DNA of 35,285 nucleotides from a virus, in IMG/VR virus record IMGVR_UViG_3300010413_000863, positions 1-35,285 of that record; one strand, 5' to 3'. The notes beneath the pieces are model-generated. The model did no database searches. It was given only the letters and a program-made list of their open reading frames with translations, and had not been told where the DNA came from. Shown here one piece after another: positions 5,679 to 35,285 of this stretch. Positions within the stretch are counted from its first letter, which is position 1; each line of letters starts with the position of its first letter. The translations under genes and the position numbers were made by a program.

Positions 5679-5838
5679 CTTCGATCGAGTCGTCATGGAT
5701 CAGTTCACCGGCATGGCGAGCAACCCAGCGGTGAGTGCGAAGCAGCAACGCTTCATGGCGATGTGTGCCAACAACCCGAGCAAGGCTCAGGGGAAGTGCC
5801 CTAGCAAGAAGGTGGCGAGGGAGTTCAGCCACAGATGA
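5596..5838 (+). CDS. Small DUF3008-like protein
   Basis: An 80-residue basic protein. Its C-terminal half, AKQQRFMAMCANNPSKAQG followed by CPSKKVAREFSHR, resembles the DUF3008-type small phage protein pattern (AQQ-F-M, Lys-rich linker, PSKKVA-EF). Function of that family is unknown. A textbook GGAGGTG lies seven bases upstream of ATG 5596, so the gene is probably translated strongly despite starting 83 bases inside the DUF115-like frame. It ends in an ATGA overlap with the portal gene, so it is likely made with the packaging and head proteins. Confidence 0.75.
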   Translation: MSKPKPSAGLSHDTNQTRKVSMFKESSDFDRVVMDQFTGMASNPAVSAKQQRFMAMCANNPSKAQGKCPSKKVAREFSHR

Positions 5839-8237
5839 CACAGGGCATGGGAGGGGCGAAGGCGGGCGGATCACCTCCGAACCCGCGCGGCGGACTCGCA
5901 GGGATGGCGAGCGGCCGAGGGATGGGGACCTTCACGAAGGAACCGAAGGCTGCTCCGCAGACTGGTCCCTATTCGCTGATCGAGGACCCCTTCAAGGAAG
6001 GGACTGACGCAGCGCAGAAGGCTCGTCTCTACGAAGAGAGCGTTGGCTTCGACAACCTAGCCGACAATCCGTTCGTTCGGGATCAAGCTAGGCAGGCGGT
6101 CACGGCGGGACTCAAGGACGTGTTCAACGTCATGGAGTTCTTGCGCAACAAGTGGCTGATCCTCTACCGCCTCTACCGTGGAGAGACGCTCGACAGGTTC
6201 GCTTACGGGCGCACGCGGCTGCACAGCCCGGAACCCTACAAGGCCGTCGAGACTTTCCACCCGAAGATCATGCGAGCCCTGTTCGCGAATGATCGTTGGT
6301 TCAAGCTCTACGGTCAGCATCAGGACAACGACGAGAACGCGAAGTGTCAGGAGATCCTGTGTCGGGATCAGCTCCGCGCTGCGCGGTTCATGCAGAAGGC
6401 TTCCAACCACATCAGGGACGGGCTGATCTACGGGACAGCCATTCAGAAAACCTACTGGTTGCAGAAGCATGGAGACATGCGCTACCGGACTGGCAAGCGT
6501 GTGCCTCGCAAGAACGGGATGGGGTCAGAGGTCAAGCTCACCGAGGTCAAGAAGCGTGAGCTGATCTTCGATGGCAACACGACAGAGAACGTCTCCATCT
6601 TCGACTTCCTGACATCCCCTAACGCGAGCGGGATGGATGATGCTGAGTGGGCGGCTGATCGCAGCTCATGGCCTGACTGGAAGGTCAAGCGGATGGGTGA
6701 GCTTGGTCACTGGATCAACCTTGCTCAGCTCCGCGAGCACCCCGGCACCAACGACACCAGCTTCGGAGACGAGTTCAAGGAGCGGAAGAGTTACGCCTAC
6801 GGGGTCTTCGATCCTCGCGAGGCTTCCTGGGCTCCGCACATCCCGCACTACGAGGTCATCGACTGGTGGGGACCGCTGGTCATCTCTGACAAGAACGGCA
6901 ACTATGAGACCAAGATGTGCAACGTCGTGATGGTCGAGCCGGAGTCTCTCCAGCTCGTCGTCCGCGTGACACAAAACCCGTTCTGGCATCAGCAGCTCCC
7001 CTATCAGGCGTGGCGTCCGATCACGCTGGAGGACGAGTTCTACGGCATCGGCGCTCTGGAGATGATCGCTCGCCTCTCGCTGGAGAAGGACATGAAGCGC
7101 AACCTGCTCATGGCCGCTAGCCAGCTCGAAGCGAACCCGATGCTCCTGGTCGCTGACGATGCGAACATCCCGGACGGGCAACTTCTGGCGCAGCCGGGTC
7201 TCGTGCTGCGCGTGCCTGATCCACAGAAGTCCGTCGTTCCTCTGGCGATGCCTCAGGTGAGCGACTCGGCTCTCAAGGCCGAGAACATCATCACCGGGGA
7301 CATCCGCGAGACGACCGGCGCGACTTCTCCCTCCATGGGCGTTGGCGATCCGTTCAACAGTGACAAGACCGCAACGCAGCACATGTCGGAGGTGGACGAG
7401 TCGAACATGCGTCTCGTCCCGATGATCTTCAACTACGAGGAAGGCATCATCAAACCGATGCTCGACCAGATGACCTGGAACAACCAGCAGTTCCAGAGCT
7501 ACGCGAAGGTCGTGCGCGAAGTCGGCCCGATGGGCATGAAGTTCCATGACCGCTACGAGATCCGCCCGGAGGATCTGATCGGTCGCTTCCTCGTGCAGCC
7601 ACTCGCCGGGCATCGTCTGACGACGAAGCAGACGCAGGTGCAGCAGCTCGTCAACATCCTCGACCGTGCCCCGATCATCAATCAGATGTATGGGCCGAAC
7701 GCGGTCAAGATGCCGCAGCTCTTGGCGATGATCCTCGAATACGGCTTCGACATCCGCAACGTGGACGAGTTCATCACCGTGCCGCAGGACTCAGCCGGAC
7801 TGCTCACCCCGTCGGAGGAAGAGGAACTCTGGTTCCACGGCAACGTGCCTCCGCGCAAGCCGGATGACAACGACATGCGGCACATCCTGAGCCACATGAC
7901 GGCCATGGGTAAGGAGCGGTTCTCCAAGCTGGAAGAGGTCAGTCCTGGAACAGCCGCTCGCGCTCGCGCGCACGTCGCCGAGCACTACCGGAAGGTCGAG
8001 CTTCTCCAGCTTCAGCAGGAGAAGACGATGATGGAGTTCGCTCAGATGGCGGCGCAGACCGGCATGAGCGGGGGCGGCAACGGATCGCCGGTCGCCGGGG
8101 CTGGTGGCCCTGGTCAGGAGCCTGGATCGCCCAAGGTTCGCAACAACGAGACGGAGCGGGGTGAGGGATCGCCGAGCGGCGGGAACGAGGCGAAGTCCTC
8201 GGCGGGTCGCCAAGCCCCGAACCGAGGTGCTGAATGA
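5835..8237 (+). CDS. Portal protein
   Basis: This 800-residue protein is the dodecameric ring at the packaging vertex through which DNA enters and leaves. Identification rests on position between TerL and scaffold/capsid, large portal size as in P22 and N4-type phages (725-763 residues), and typical sequence. That sequence comprises an N-terminal helical region with YKAVETFHPKIMRALFAN, a central stem-like region (NLLMAASQLEANPMLLVAD; TGDIRETTGATSPSMGVGD) and the helix ESNMRLVPMIFNYEEGIIKPML. The first 40 residues are Gly/Pro-rich. The last about 60 are Gly/Ser-rich and disordered (from SGGGNGSPVAG), after a helical barrel-like stretch (HYRKVELLQLQQEKTMMEFAQMAA). Starts and ends with ATGA overlaps. 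Confidence 0.9.
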   Translation: MTQGMGGAKAGGSPPNPRGGLAGMASGRGMGTFTKEPKAAPQTGPYSLIEDPFKEGTDAAQKARLYEESVGFDNLADNPFVRDQARQAVTAGLKDVFNVMEFLRNKWLILYRLYRGETLDRFAYGRTRLHSPEPYKAVETFHPKIMRALFANDRWFKLYGQHQDNDENAKCQEILCRDQLRAARFMQKASNHIRDGLIYGTAIQKTYWLQKHGDMRYRTGKRVPRKNGMGSEVKLTEVKKRELIFDGNTTENVSIFDFLTSPNASGMDDAEWAADRSSWPDWKVKRMGELGHWINLAQLREHPGTNDTSFGDEFKERKSYAYGVFDPREASWAPHIPHYEVIDWWGPLVISDKNGNYETKMCNVVMVEPESLQLVVRVTQNPFWHQQLPYQAWRPITLEDEFYGIGALEMIARLSLEKDMKRNLLMAASQLEANPMLLVADDANIPDGQLLAQPGLVLRVPDPQKSVVPLAMPQVSDSALKAENIITGDIRETTGATSPSMGVGDPFNSDKTATQHMSEVDESNMRLVPMIFNYEEGIIKPMLDQMTWNNQQFQSYAKVVREVGPMGMKFHDRYEIRPEDLIGRFLVQPLAGHRLTTKQTQVQQLVNILDRAPIINQMYGPNAVKMPQLLAMILEYGFDIRNVDEFITVPQDSAGLLTPSEEEELWFHGNVPPRKPDDNDMRHILSHMTAMGKERFSKLEEVSPGTAARARAHVAEHYRKVELLQLQQEKTMMEFAQMAAQTGMSGGGNGSPVAGAGGPGQEPGSPKVRNNETERGEGSPSGGNEAKSSAGRQAPNRGAE

Positions 8238-10061: not shown

Positions 10062-11090
10062 ATGCCTTTTGTGAACAGTATCGGAGTTCTCAACTCCTTC
10101 GATGTCGGCACGGGCAACCGTGAAGACCTGCTCGACATCATCACGAACATCTCCCCGATGGACACGCTCCTGCTGTCCTCGTTGGAGAAGGTTCCTGCGA
10201 ACAACATCAGCCACGAGTGGCTGGTCGACATCCTTGCCGACTTCGGCGATCCGGCGAACGGCAACGCAGACGTGCAGGCGACCCCGGAAGGTTCGGACGC
10301 GACGTTCGACCCCCTGGTGCCGCGCAAGCGCCTGTGCAACCTGACGCACATCATCCGTCGGACGTTCGACGTTTCGGACACGCAGCGGGACATCAACACC
10401 GCTGGCATCCGGGACGAATACGTCTACCAGCTCCGCAAGGCGACGATGGAGCTGGCTCGGTTCATCGAGTTCGCTCTCCTGCACTCGATTCGCCAGAGCC
10501 AGACCGCCCAGGGCAACACGGGCGGCGTGCTTCCGCGCAAGATGGACGGCTACTACGCCTTCGCGGCGTCGTCCGATCCGACTTGCGCGACCACGCTCGG
10601 CCTCAGCACTGAGGAGATGGGAACCGTGACGACGGTCGCTGGCAGCTCGCCGGACGACTGCATTACGGAGTGCATCCTGAACGACCACCTGGAAGCCATG
10701 TGGGAGAAGGGTGCGATGACGGACACGATCTGGGTCAACTCGCCCCAGAAGCGTTCGCTCAGCAACCTGACGCTGAACCCCAACAGCAACGTCCGCTACA
10801 ACATCCCGGTCAACGAGCGCACGGTCATCAACACCGTGGACTTCTACCAGAGCGACTTCGGGACGCAGCGGATCTACCTGCACCGCTACCAGCGGAACGA
10901 CCGCATCTCGACTGCGGAAGCCAGCAAGCTCCGCATCGCGGTGCTTCGTCCTGTCCTGGCCGTCGAGCTGGCGAAGGTCGGCTCCTCGACGAAGGGCATG
11001 GTCGAGTGGGAAGGAACCCTCGAAGTCCTCGCCCCGAACGCGATCGGTTACATCACCGATCTCTGCACGGGCGTTGCGGGTTGCCCGTGA
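10062..11090 (+). CDS. Major capsid protein, DUF5309 / SU10 type
   Basis: This 342-residue HK97-fold shell protein has the DUF5309 pattern. There is an early segment REDLLDIITNISPMDTLLLSSL, then HEWLVDIL and a Pro-rich linker. Next comes RLCNLTHIIRRTFDVSDTQ with DEYVYQLRKATMELARFIEFALL (the long spine helix), and a C-terminal strand region (EWEGTLEVLAPNAIGYITDL). DUF5309 capsids are known from SU10-like short-tailed phages with elongated heads and from relatives. The gene follows scaffold and precedes small zinc-ribbon genes. No N-terminal cleaved domain is evident. Codon use is strongly G/C-ending, as in a highly expressed gene. Confidence 0.9.
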   Translation: MPFVNSIGVLNSFDVGTGNREDLLDIITNISPMDTLLLSSLEKVPANNISHEWLVDILADFGDPANGNADVQATPEGSDATFDPLVPRKRLCNLTHIIRRTFDVSDTQRDINTAGIRDEYVYQLRKATMELARFIEFALLHSIRQSQTAQGNTGGVLPRKMDGYYAFAASSDPTCATTLGLSTEEMGTVTTVAGSSPDDCITECILNDHLEAMWEKGAMTDTIWVNSPQKRSLSNLTLNPNSNVRYNIPVNERTVINTVDFYQSDFGTQRIYLHRYQRNDRISTAEASKLRIAVLRPVLAVELAKVGSSTKGMVEWEGTLEVLAPNAIGYITDLCTGVAGCP

Positions 11091-31634: not shown

Positions 31635-32075
31635 TCAAGCGCAGTAGATCGGGAGCCACTGATCGAGCAGCTCCAGATGTGCTCTGCTTCCCGAGAGTGA
31701 CCGAAGATATTTTTCTTCGATTTTTCCCCAGGGGATAGAGCGTCTGTCGCGGCTGAGTTCGAGCACCATGTCGAACGTCAACGTCGCGCAGAAGTCACCG
31801 CGAGCCCAACAGACGAGGGCTAGACCACCAGCTCGGTTGCACGAGTCGAGTGCGTTGAACTGGTGCGTGAGGATGCCCGGCGAGCTGTGAATCGGCAGCG
31901 AGAGACGCGACACCATCTTCGCTTCGATCATCACCACGCGGCCGGTGACGGTGAACCCCATGAAGTCGCACGGGGTCTGCTGCATCTCCTCAGGGAACTT
32001 CCAGAAGCGCGCAACCTGCCAGTCAGCGAGTTCTCTCCCCGCCTTGCGCAGCACGAGTTCTAGCTTGTTCGACAA
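31635..32075 (-). CDS. RecU-like PD-(D/E)XK Holliday junction resolvase
   Basis: 146 residues. Conserved nuclease layout: CDFMG (D37), VVMIEAK (E51 and K53), then SRLSLPI and HQFNALDSCNRAGGLALVCW (Q72 in the helix after the core). This matches the RecU/penicillin-binding-protein-related factor A pattern of branched-DNA resolvases; typical RecU is about 200 residues, so this is a compact phage form. It would cut junctions or branches in replicating concatemers before packaging. The start is TTG at 32073-32075 with AGAGG ten bases upstream, inside the preceding gene; an in-frame GTG six codons further in is the alternative. Confidence 0.75.
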   Translation of the reverse strand: MSNKLELVLRKAGRELADWQVARFWKFPEEMQQTPCDFMGFTVTGRVVMIEAKMVSRLSLPIHSSPGILTHQFNALDSCNRAGGLALVCWARGDFCATLTFDMVLELSRDRRSIPWGKIEEKYLRSLSGSRAHLELLDQWLPIYCA

Positions 32076-32301
32076 GCTCCCGAAACCTCTTCAACCAAGC
32101 TCTGAATATGCGATCTATCTCCTGCGAAGTCAGTGGTCTCTTGGCGAGGTAGGGGACGAGCTTACCGTCGATCTGATCGAATTCCTCCCAGAACTGACGG
32201 TCAGCTCCGCCGTCCGGGAACGCCTGCTCGTAGACCTTGCAGGCTTCCTCAGAACACCGGCTCAGCTTCCCCGATATCTTCTCGTCGGTCAGGGTAGTCA
32301 T
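32023..32301 (-). CDS. Hypothetical protein between helicase and resolvase genes
   Basis: 92 residues on the minus strand, starting at ATG 32299-32301 with GAGGTGA about seven bases upstream. It is acidic to neutral, largely helical (CSEEACKVYEQAF, IDRIFRAWLKRFRELVEQAR), with two Cys (CSEEAC) and no known domain. It overlaps the upstream primase-helicase by 53 bases and the downstream resolvase also by 53 bases. Its place in a replication operon suggests an accessory role, for example a nuclease or helicase partner, but this is only context. Confidence 0.65.
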   Translation of the reverse strand: MTTLTDEKISGKLSRCSEEACKVYEQAFPDGGADRQFWEEFDQIDGKLVPYLAKRPLTSQEIDRIFRAWLKRFRELVEQARTRAAQGGERTR

Positions 32302-35285
32302 ACTCAGTCACCTCTTCTGGATCGTCGAGCAGAGATGGGATGCTTGGCTCCCCTCTGCCTCCTTCTCTGACCCACTTCTCGAGCACCGACCAGCGATGCT
32401 GCACGGCATACTCGCCGCGCTCCCGGTAGAGCTGCTCGGTTCGGTTCAGGATCTCGACAGCCTCTCCGCTGAGCTTCAACGTGCGCTGCCCCCTGCCCGG
32501 CTCTACGCCCTTGCTGAGCGTCACCACGTTGAGTGCTCGAGCCTTGGCTAGCCAACTGTCGGTGGCTTGGATGTCCGGGAACAAGGTCTGGATCTCGCCC
32601 TTCGTGAAGCTGCCGAGAAGCGAGTTGGCTCGACGGATGGTCTCGATGATCGGGTCTCCAGCCGAGCCGATGCCACGGAAGATCAGGTGCTCGGCAGCGT
32701 AGGGCTGACGGACCTCGTTCTCGATGCGCCTCCGTCGGCTCCAGGTGTCGTATTCGATCGACTTGTAGGTGTAGCGGAGCCACTCCGCCGCGAACTCTAC
32801 GTGTGGCCTGCGGACGATCACCTTCTGGGGGTGTTCTGGATCGTAGGAGTTGAGCAGGTTGGCTACCGCGATCGCTTGCCGAAGGATGCTGAGCGGCTTC
32901 TCTGCCCGCACGAACATCGGGATCTCCTTCTGCCAGTAGACCTCTGCCATGTCATCGCAGATGTCTCGCGCGAGCTGCGCGGCGTCCGGCTCGATCACCA
33001 CGTCACGCTCGGTCTGCAACCACGCCCTCTGCACGAGGCAGTGCAGCGTGTTGGAGCCGAGCAGGGAGGGCTCGTCGCTCTGCTTCCAGTTCTTCGCCTC
33101 GGCCCTGAGGCAGTAGTCGAACCGGCGGATGGACTCCTCTCGATCGTTGCAGAACCGGGCGATGTGCTGGCAGGCTGCACCGAACGTGTCCCTCTGGCCT
33201 CCGTAGTAGTTCAGGATCCACACCGTCCTGACACAGCAGGCGAAGTCACGGTCTCCGCCGCCAGCCTTGGCCGACTGCACCACTCCGTCGGATCTGGCGG
33301 ACTGCACACCCTCCATCACGTCACGCGGCATCAGGTGGGCCTCGTCCACCGCCATCATCCCGCCGTGCTCCTTGGGGTAGATGCCGATTTTGCTGACGTA
33401 GCCGCTGACCCGGTGGTCACGAACCGAGCCCACCAGGAAGCCAGCCCTGGAGGTCATCGAGCCTGAGGCGTTGTAGCTGCCACCCACCACCTCGGCGATC
33501 GCCTTGAAGATCGGGCTCTTGCCTGCGCCTGTGTCGCCGACGATCGCGCAGTCGATCCAGCCGCGCACCAGCTCGCCGGTCACGGGGTCACGGAACCAGA
33601 GCGTCGAGCAGGCGCACATCAGAGCAGCGATGTGCAGGTCATCCTGGTCATAGATGCCGGTGATGTTCGCACCCACGTCCCGAGCGATCTTGGTGATGGA
33701 CGAGCGCACCTCATCGAGCGTGCGCTGCGGCTGGGCTGCGGCAACCAGCTCGTCCATCGCTTGTGTCAGATCCAGCTTCACCCGGCTGACGGTCTCGATC
33801 TTGGTGGCGAAGATCGCCACGGTGCCCTGGTGCTCGATCACTCGCCCCGTGATGCGCGCGTTGCCTGAGACTGGCGGTGATTGCTCGGACACCACCAGGA
33901 TCCCCATGTGGGCTCGGATGCGGTCATCGTCCGGCACGACCCTCGTGTAGCTCTTGCGTGGCGGTCCGGCGAACCACCTCTTCATCTTCGAGTGGATCTT
34001 GTGCTTCAGCTCCCAGGTCTGGCACCGCGACGGCTTGCCGAGGATCCGCTCCTTGATGAACGTCTCGGCATCCCTGCCTCGTGTGAGCGAGTAGGCTTCC
34101 CGCTCCAGCATCTTCCACTTCACGAGGTAGCCGTTGTGGTCATACTTGACTGGAGCATCGCAGTTGCGGCAGTAGATCGCTGAGCCCTGCGCGCACTCCA
34201 GCTCGCTGAGTAAGGGCACGATGACGTTCTCGTCAGTGATCGCATCGACCGTGCATTCGACGATGATGTTGTGGTTGAGGTAGGAGCCCACCTCCTCGAA
34301 GTCGCACTCGATCGGGGCCTCCTGTCCTGGCCGGATCGTCTCGATGTCCCAGGACAGGAAGTCCTTGGGGTCTCGACCACCTCCCTCGATCCAGTCCCGT
34401 AGGTCAGCTCCCCACTTCACGTCGCCCTTGATCGGCACCGCCATGACGCGCATGTCGATCTCTTCCCCGGTCATCTCCGCTATCTCATCGTGCAGCTCCG
34501 ATGCCTGCTCGAAGAACCGGAGCTGGCGCAGCTCGAACTCCTGGCGTCGGTTCGAGTCGTCGAAAGTCCACTCACGAGGATCCGGGTGCTGGACGAAGTC
34601 GTTGTCGAGCAGCAGCCTGATTGGGTGCCGCATCACCTCTGGAGGGATCGACCGCAGGTGCGGCTTCTGGCCTGCTCCTCCGTTGGAAGCGTAGACGAAG
34701 ATCGGGTGCTCGGCCTCTTGCCAGCGGAGGACACAGCGGGCAGCGGCGGCGTCCCATTCACCCTCCACGATCCACACAGGAGCGTCTGGGTGCTGCTTGA
34801 GGCGGTCCAGGTCCACCAGGGGCCACAGACCAGTGACCGAGCCAGCGTCCTCCTTGCGGGCTGTCTGGTTGCCAGCCCAGCGCCACTCCCCCTTCGACTT
34901 CTGTGCGTGCCAATCGTAGTAGCGGTAGTAGTTCCTCAGGCTGCCATCCGCGTAGCGTTGGAAGGCCACGAGCATCTCATCCAGGTAGCCAAGCTCCAAC
35001 GTGCTCGCATCCTCTGGAGAGATTCCCCGCTCAGCCAGGAACCCACGGAAGAACTTGGCGCGCGGCTCATCGCTCTCACGTAGCGCCTGCGCAGCTTCAG
35101 CCACGAGCTTCGGAGTGACGAGGGCGGAGCGTTTCTTCCTGGCCTCCTGTCGTCGCGGCACCTTCTTCAGCTCGGTGCTCACCCCGTAGAGACCGGCGAC
35201 CAGCTCCAAGGCTTGCAGCTCGCTGATACCCTTGAGCTTGGCTACCCACTGGAACACGTCGAGTCCGTCCTGCTTGCCCGGAGAG
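32249..35285 (-). CDS. DnaG-type primase fused to MCM-like AAA+ helicase (5' end outside window)
   Basis: The frame is open to the window edge, so the N-terminus is missing; numbering is from an internal GTG at 35257. The visible start, GKQDGLDVFQWVAKLKGIS, fits the end of a CHC2 zinc-binding domain. TOPRIM motifs: EGEWDA (165-170), LLLDND (215-220). Then a C363/C366 zinc knuckle and an OB-like segment (460-490), followed by ATPase motifs: GDTGAGKS (574-581), MMAVDEAH (634-641), SDGVVQSAKAGGG (656-668), sensor 1 N683, and RRFD (711-714). The SAKAG and RRFD segments are MCM-type. A lid (785-825) and winged-helix-like C-terminus follow. Likely makes primers and unwinds DNA at the phage fork. 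Confidence 0.8.
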   Translation of the reverse strand, partial: SPGKQDGLDVFQWVAKLKGISELQALELVAGLYGVSTELKKVPRRQEARKKRSALVTPKLVAEAAQALRESDEPRAKFFRGFLAERGISPEDASTLELGYLDEMLVAFQRYADGSLRNYYRYYDWHAQKSKGEWRWAGNQTARKEDAGSVTGLWPLVDLDRLKQHPDAPVWIVEGEWDAAAARCVLRWQEAEHPIFVYASNGGAGQKPHLRSIPPEVMRHPIRLLLDNDFVQHPDPREWTFDDSNRRQEFELRQLRFFEQASELHDEIAEMTGEEIDMRVMAVPIKGDVKWGADLRDWIEGGGRDPKDFLSWDIETIRPGQEAPIECDFEEVGSYLNHNIIVECTVDAITDENVIVPLLSELECAQGSAIYCRNCDAPVKYDHNGYLVKWKMLEREAYSLTRGRDAETFIKERILGKPSRCQTWELKHKIHSKMKRWFAGPPRKSYTRVVPDDDRIRAHMGILVVSEQSPPVSGNARITGRVIEHQGTVAIFATKIETVSRVKLDLTQAMDELVAAAQPQRTLDEVRSSITKIARDVGANITGIYDQDDLHIAALMCACSTLWFRDPVTGELVRGWIDCAIVGDTGAGKSPIFKAIAEVVGGSYNASGSMTSRAGFLVGSVRDHRVSGYVSKIGIYPKEHGGMMAVDEAHLMPRDVMEGVQSARSDGVVQSAKAGGGDRDFACCVRTVWILNYYGGQRDTFGAACQHIARFCNDREESIRRFDYCLRAEAKNWKQSDEPSLLGSNTLHCLVQRAWLQTERDVVIEPDAAQLARDICDDMAEVYWQKEIPMFVRAEKPLSILRQAIAVANLLNSYDPEHPQKVIVRRPHVEFAAEWLRYTYKSIEYDTWSRRRRIENEVRQPYAAEHLIFRGIGSAGDPIIETIRRANSLLGSFTKGEIQTLFPDIQATDSWLAKARALNVVTLSKGVEPGRGQRTLKLSGEAVEILNRTEQLYRERGEYAVQHRWSVLEKWVREGGRGEPSIPSLLDDPEEVTEYDYPDRREDIGEAEPVF

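Follow-up and report, generated by a model that had tools for sequence, protein, structure and literature searches.

A family of phage proteins joining a DnaG-type TOPRIM primase to an MCM-type helicase, probably serving as replicative primase-helicases

Can a primase of the DnaG type share one polypeptide with a helicase of the MCM type, and what would such a protein do for the virus that carries it? The question is raised by a gene at one end of the IMG/VR virus record IMGVR_UViG_3300010413_000863, the whole of which (a linear sequence of 35,285 bases and probably a fragment) was analyzed here and is further referred to as the window. In bacterial replication, DnaG works with a RecA-type ring of 5'-3' polarity; in archaea and eukaryotes, it is an unrelated primase that works with the 3'-5' MCM ring. 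The family of TOPRIM-MCM fusions, to which this gene belongs, combines the two systems in a single polypeptide. A first-pass annotation, made from the letters of the window, had noticed here an open reading frame (ORF) with TOPRIM primase motifs in one half and an MCM-like ATPase in the other. The frame does exist: it lies on the minus strand, comprises 1011 codons without an internal stop and is open at the 5' end because the record ends inside the gene. All the motifs quoted for its two halves were found at the expected spacing, and their proposed identity, TOPRIM primase and MCM helicase, was supported by profile searches, structure prediction and comparative genomics. We consider it very probable that the gene encodes the phage's own self-contained replicative primase-helicase, in which DnaG would be positioned at the front of a ring that moves 3'-5'.

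MCM (PF00493) was the sole Pfam family above its cut-off for the window protein (37.4 bits with the cut-off of 23.3, E=1.9e-9, residues 544-675). The NCBIfam MCM model matched residues 543-675, while in PHROGs an unnamed family extended across residues 503-842 (5e-30), a DNA helicase family being matched as well. When the single sequence was compared with PDB by phmmer, archaeal and eukaryotic MCMs were retrieved almost exclusively (best E=1.9e-6), with neither DnaB nor SF3 proteins among the matches, and the DnaB_C motor was not matched in the protein by Pfam. A profile of the family matched archaeal MCM with E ~1e-13, the helix-2 insert, the hairpin, sensor 1, the arginine finger and sensor 2 all being in register. 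The AlphaFold model of the window protein, built on 61 family members (mean pLDDT 80.7), had MCMs as its best matches; in the case of the DNA-bound Sso MCM, model residues 323-852 were superposed on chain residues 103-607 (Z=30.8 over 452 residues), a match that spans the N-terminal OB/zinc domain of MCM plus the motor. In this model the MCM helix-2 insert is a strand-helix-strand at residues 603-632 and the pre-sensor-1 hairpin occupies residues 668-682, both in register with Sso MCM. Both the profile comparison with DnaB and SF3 and the superposition on archaeal MCM, which the first-pass annotation had suggested as checks, thus came out in favor of MCM.

The motor motifs are strongly conserved. 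In the alignment of 61 TOPRIM-MCM proteins, to which all conservation counts given here refer, K589, E648, R664, N692 and R721 are invariant, and the sensor 2 residue R802 is arginine in 56 proteins and lysine in the other 5. The window protein has VDEAH at residues 646-650, RRFD at residues 720-723 and, at residues 665-677, the post-Walker segment SDGVVQSAKAGGG, which had been likened to a characteristic strip of MCM. As for the zinc ligands, C364 is invariant, C364, C372 and C375 are kept in at least 60 of the 61 proteins and C421 in 53.

The N-terminal half was assigned to the DnaG type by the NCBIfam dnaG model (residues 9-106, E=2.7e-5) and by the PHROGs DNA primase family phrog_47 (residues 9-229, 2.7e-7); the primase part of the family profile retrieved the DnaG proteins of Aquifex (1e-34) and E. 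coli (4.8e-15) as well as T7 gp4 (~1e-9). Since the fold search with the whole model tested this part poorly, the N-terminal 320 residues were folded and searched alone (pLDDT 85.5). The resulting model was aligned with the E. coli DnaG core across 212 residues (Z=16.0); all primases and Twinkle were found with Z of at least 11, and the first other, non-primase TOPRIM proteins only at 6.8. The primase catalytic residue D294 is invariant, and no AEP (archaeo-eukaryotic primase) family was matched in the N-terminus by Pfam, profile or fold searches. According to the fold searches, the DnaG match gives way to the MCM match near residue 320, so far as the C-terminal helicase-binding domain of bacterial DnaG is concerned, for which no dedicated search was made. 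No alignment was obtained to the MCM residues before ~103, on the side of the helical A-domain, and the primase occupies this position. The whole-family profile matched both DnaG and MCM chains, T7 gp4 being matched in its primase half only. The end of a CHC2 zinc finger, which the first-pass annotation believed to recognize at the window edge, was not confirmed: no zinc ligand is visible there, and the record begins just past the finger. The genes of the close relatives extend beyond the position of the window edge and encode an intact CHC2 finger there; judging from them, such a finger would also precede the window copy.

The fusion is a recurrent one. The search of viral contigs with the window protein alone produced no relatives; tblastn against phage records retrieved 59 records with the MCM part. 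All three domains (CHC2-TOPRIM-MCM) were recognized by Pfam in Paenibacillus phage SV21, Bacillus phage BSTP12, Siphoviridae ctIqW946 and Weizmannia phage Youna2, and TOPRIM together with MCM in Microbacterium phage Sparcetus and Arthrobacter phage Wollypog; in some of these proteins one domain is at or slightly under its Pfam cut-off. With an alignment of the known phage members as the query, 190 relatives were obtained from IMG/VR. Profile classification of the fetched loci recognized ~147 distinct TOPRIM-MCM ORFs and ~40 AEP-MCM ORFs (67 and 7 clusters, respectively, at 60% identity), the counts depending on the seeds used and the sample being a seeded one and not a census. The first scan of genome contigs found no member, and the second, with a subfamily alignment as the query, found three contigs from bacterial bins. 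In the claim of a new replicative architecture, the pairing of TOPRIM with MCM has stood; its uniqueness has not, as the fusion represents a phage family already present in the databases, and its sister architecture, AEP-MCM, has been described.

Several loci deserve separate mention. TOPRIM-MCM genes were found in contigs binned as Planctomycetota (L246, 4318-7365, a contig of 223 kb) and Acidobacteriota (L245, 4486-7533), each of them downstream of a large ORF resembling, by eye, a RecD2-type helicase; these contigs may be proviruses hinting at hosts. Two phage MCM proteins of the same group, encoded by L045 (5632-7848, 739 aa) and L040 (5440-7278, 613 aa), have no recognizable primase domain and may be either fragments of genes or MCMs that act alone. 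In L159 (9566-11695), L161 (7565-9874) and L162 (4059-6365), a TOPRIM primase that shares the EGEWD core is fused to a different AAA+ ATPase; these proteins of ~710-770 aa have the Walker A motif IVGPxGxxKT, apparently lack the MCM OB/zinc region and represent another primase-ATPase combination.

As to the role of the fusion, DnaB_C was matched in none of the 37 fusion-bearing records, which may be incomplete, and in all 14 control genomes, a difference at most suggestive of a replicative function. CHC2 matches occur in 25 of the 37 records, always in ORFs of ~930-1180 residues, that is, of the size of the fusion, and 12 of the records encode a family A DNA polymerase. The fusion gene is flanked by SSB-like and polymerase genes in annotated phages, and its neighbors across the records are SSB-like, SNF2, RecU-like or PolA genes.

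In DnaB systems, the N-tier trails, and the primase bound to it acts on the strand that has already passed through the ring. The arrangement that we propose for the fusion would be different. Its domain order, from the N- to the C-terminus, is the CHC2 finger (in the window copy presumably lost at the record edge), the DnaG-type TOPRIM core (about residues 52-320) and an MCM body (about 322-925) made up of the OB/zinc N-tier, the AAA+ motor and the winged helix. The primase would take the place of the MCM helical A-domain, the MCM match beginning at about residue 103 of Sso MCM, and the junction is at about residue 321. Six subunits could form an MCM ring, travelling 3'-5' along the leading-strand template with the N-tier first, as Sso MCM does (PMC6831031). 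As the N-tier would lead and also carries the primase, the DnaG domains would be found on the leading face of the ring, adjoining the fork junction, where they would make primers on the lagging strand, which is excluded from the ring; with DnaB or T7 gp4, in contrast, the primase trails on the threaded strand. The primers made by the fusion could be elongated by a family A polymerase or by a host polymerase. The identity of the domains, the conservation of their motifs, the union of both halves in one ORF in many phages and the lack of a DnaB match in the records searched are observations; ring formation, polarity, the priming side and the role in replication are what we infer for the fusion. 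Active 3'-5' helicases of the MCM-like or AAA+ kind are within the repertoire of bacterial mobile elements, as Cch and Cch2 of SCCmec illustrate (PMC7581432). A broader proposal has, in our estimation, an even chance of being correct: TOPRIM-MCM would be a widespread, undescribed phage replisome in which DnaG sits on the front of a 3'-5' MCM ring and takes the excluded strand as its template, in a geometry opposite to that of DnaB-DnaG, and in which the primase (DnaG or AEP) is exchangeable on one MCM chassis.

A number of points weigh against the replicative primase-helicase. The window copy is truncated at its 5' end, is long-branched (2.63 changes per column in the tree of MCM modules) and has unusual residues at several positions that are nearly invariant in the family (R547Q, H559C and R684C, among others). 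Two close relatives miss the Pfam MCM cut-off on their own. No family A polymerase was found in 25 of the 37 records, which, again, may be incomplete. Finally, archaeal DnaG binds MCM weakly and inhibits the helicase (PMC4227792), so that the coupling of the two activities is no given.

The alternative that survives best, though we regard it as improbable, is that the protein is a replication initiator or a repair helicase with a non-priming TOPRIM domain, the phage being replicated by DnaG and DnaB of the host. The missing DnaB could indeed reflect the use of the host one, and, considering the many records without a family A polymerase, host replication proteins may serve these phages. However, even very divergent members have an unchanged TOPRIM catalytic set and keep CHC2, which is unexpected for a dead primase, and the occurrence of AEP instead of TOPRIM on one and the same MCM chassis suggests that priming is selected for. 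It is still less probable, indeed very unlikely, that the ATPase half is another AAA+ replication ATPase (SF3/D5, DUF927, DUF3987, VirE or Mg-chelatase-like) merely resembling MCM. Phages are known to join primases to several such ATPases (PMC5862659), Pfam gives only weak Mg_chelatase or AAA_22 matches for two subfamily members, and the viral fold library includes, at weaker E-values, DUF3987 and VirE proteins; yet MCM alone passed the Pfam cut-off for the window protein, the PDB sequence matches were MCM almost throughout and included neither SF3 nor DnaB, and the fold match covered the OB/zinc N-domain of MCM together with the motor. That two genes were joined by misassembly or by the loss of a stop codon, as might be suspected from the window being a single uncultivated contig cut inside the gene, is refuted by independent copies: both halves lie in one continuous ORF here, in more than 100 metagenome contigs and, as full-length collinear homologues, in separately sequenced isolated phages, and the gene order is conserved in the close relatives.

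In the MCM-module tree, which has a small outgroup and several long branches, the TOPRIM- and AEP-fused phage MCMs form one group as opposed to four archaeal mobile-element MCMs (100/99), and the window protein groups with L008, L112, L113 and L114 (98/91). An AEP domain appears, for instance, in the MCM fusion of vB_BboS-125. The AEP rows are split in the free tree; nevertheless, the approximately unbiased (AU) tests reject neither a single AEP clade (p=0.48) nor a single TOPRIM clade (p=0.12), and repeated independent swaps of the primase are thus unsupported. At least one primase exchange on the common MCM chassis, in either direction, is implied. The AEP-MCM genes of L204 (5596-8379), L087 (4231-7368) and L039 (4174-7200) have MCM modules lying apart from those of the Bacillus-type AEP-MCMs in the free tree, a single AEP clade being allowed. 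An in-place primase swap, with Youna2 encoding AEP-MCM in the same queuosine-gene neighborhood as the TOPRIM-MCM of BSTP12, was also considered and rejected, since the Youna2 protein is CHC2-TOPRIM-MCM.

Seven contig loci, L109-L115, encode the closest relatives of the window protein, with 26-28% identity to it over almost the whole length, together with L244, a contig from a bacterial bin (29% identity). The window and its close relatives have a common gene order, in which a gene of a RecU-like nuclease adjoins the fusion gene, and the genes of a giant 2427-aa protein and of structural proteins are convergent to it. Upstream of the fusion, the close relatives carry a SNF2-type helicase gene, a DUF932 gene and a gene similar to Pam3 gp34. 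Homologues of the giant protein, which is of the phage 'polyvalent' kind, occupy the same convergent position in L109-L113 and L115. Judging from the SU10-type portal and capsid proteins, the window virus is probably podovirus-like. The coordinates are collected in Table 1.

Table 1. Features of the primase-helicase gene and of other genes of the window (residues are those of the window protein).
Feature	Coordinates	Strand	Remarks
DnaG-type primase–MCM helicase fusion ORF	32249..35284	minus	1011 aa; 5' end cut by record edge; stop 32249-32251
Region just after the CHC2 finger, start of the TIGR01391 dnaG match (residues 9-106)	35129..35260	minus	Residues 9-52; alignment to relatives with an intact CHC2 finger
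DnaG-type primase catalytic core (RNA polymerase domain), TOPRIM fold	34325..35128	minus	Residues 53-320; profile and fold matches
EGEWD, TOPRIM catalytic Glu motif	34751..34765	minus	Residues 174-178; E176 invariant (61/61)
DND, TOPRIM DxD metal-binding motif	34598..34606	minus	Residues 227-229; D227 in 61/61, D229 in 59/61
MCM-type N-terminal OB domain with four-Cys zinc site (C364, C372, C375, C421)	33785..34321	minus	Residues 322-500; aligns from Sso MCM residue 103
MCM AAA+ motor and lid	32720..33781	minus	Residues 502-855; Pfam, PDB phmmer, fold, alignment
Walker A, GDTGAGKS	33515..33538	minus	Residues 583-590
Walker B, VDE	33341..33349	minus	Residues 646-648; E648 invariant
MCM pre-sensor-1 beta-hairpin strip (SAKAG, K673)	33260..33289	minus	Residues 666-675
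Sensor 1 Asn, N692	33209..33211	minus	Invariant; alignment, register with Sso MCM
Arginine finger R721, equivalent of MCM SRFD	33122..33124	minus	Invariant; alignment, register with Sso MCM
C-terminal winged-helix-like region	32471..32704	minus	Residues 861-938; secondary structure of the model; one MCM chain aligns to 925
RecU-like (Holliday-junction-resolvase-type) nuclease, next gene downstream	31635..32075	minus	Weak RecU match, E=0.002; conserved neighbor in close relatives
Giant protein, 2427 aa	22339-29622	plus	LPD38 domain, E=1.7e-29
SU10-type portal protein	5835-8237	plus	1.2e-27
SU10-type major capsid protein	10062-11090	plus	8.9e-65

In the open literature searched, AEP-MCM was found and no description of a DnaG-MCM fusion was, though the latter may be tabulated in the survey of Kazlauskas et al. 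(2016) or in the BcMCM paper (Samuels et al., 2009). The fusion of a primase with MCM is already known in the form of AEP-MCM; the DnaG version is a variant of it, and its sequences are public under generic names. The fusion is carried by cultivated phages of Microbacterium, Arthrobacter, Bacillus and Paenibacillus, which makes it directly testable: whether DnaG primes the excluded strand from the front of an MCM ring could be studied with one protein. In a wider sense, phages treat primase and replicative helicase as modules that can be interchanged, a point of relevance to how life's two unrelated replication systems could have been assembled.

Many of the deposited fusion genes deserve better names. 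The proteins of Sparcetus, Wollypog, BSTP12, SV21 and Youna2 belong to the same TOPRIM-MCM family as the window protein, with ~18-21% identity to it over the full length, and are labelled 'DNA primase', 'DNA primase/helicase' or 'DNA primase small subunit', none of the labels of these five phages saying TOPRIM-MCM. In the case of Youna2 (OM293949; L167, 2471-5488), the label 'DNA primase small subunit', i.e., AEP, is wrong, as the protein is CHC2-TOPRIM-MCM. The protein of Bacillus phage BSTP5 (MW354669), which has the same label, closely matches the TOPRIM-MCM of BSTP12, so that in its case, too, the label is probably mistaken.

Among the known systems, T7 gp4 and Twinkle resemble the window family in having an N-terminal CHC2-TOPRIM primase fused to a ring helicase, and their TOPRIM parts match it; their motor, however, is a RecA-type 5'-3' helicase of the DnaB family, and with gp4 the family profile agrees only in the primase half. 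Archaeal and eukaryotic MCMs (Sso MCM, MCM2-7) share with the family the fold of the OB/zinc N-tier and of AAA+ (Z ~27-31), with all motor motifs in register, but they have no fused primase and keep the helical A-domain that seems to be replaced in the family; the zinc spacing of the window protein, C-x7-C-x2-C-x45-C, also differs from theirs. Archaeal DnaG and MCM are likewise a DnaG-type primase acting with an MCM helicase, although in trans: they are separate proteins, for which weak binding and inhibition of the helicase were reported (Bauer et al., 2013, in the description given by PMC4227792). The nearest counterparts are the AEP-MCM fusions of bacterial mobile elements, which are already known (PMC5862659, with reference to McGeoch and Bell, 2005; Samuels et al., 2009). 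Those of Bacillus phages and plasmids are also replication genes of phages or mobile elements and have an N-terminal primase on the same MCM chassis (OB/zinc region, AAA+, winged helix), but this primase is the unrelated AEP with its primase small-subunit fold, while in the window family it is TOPRIM/DnaG with CHC2.

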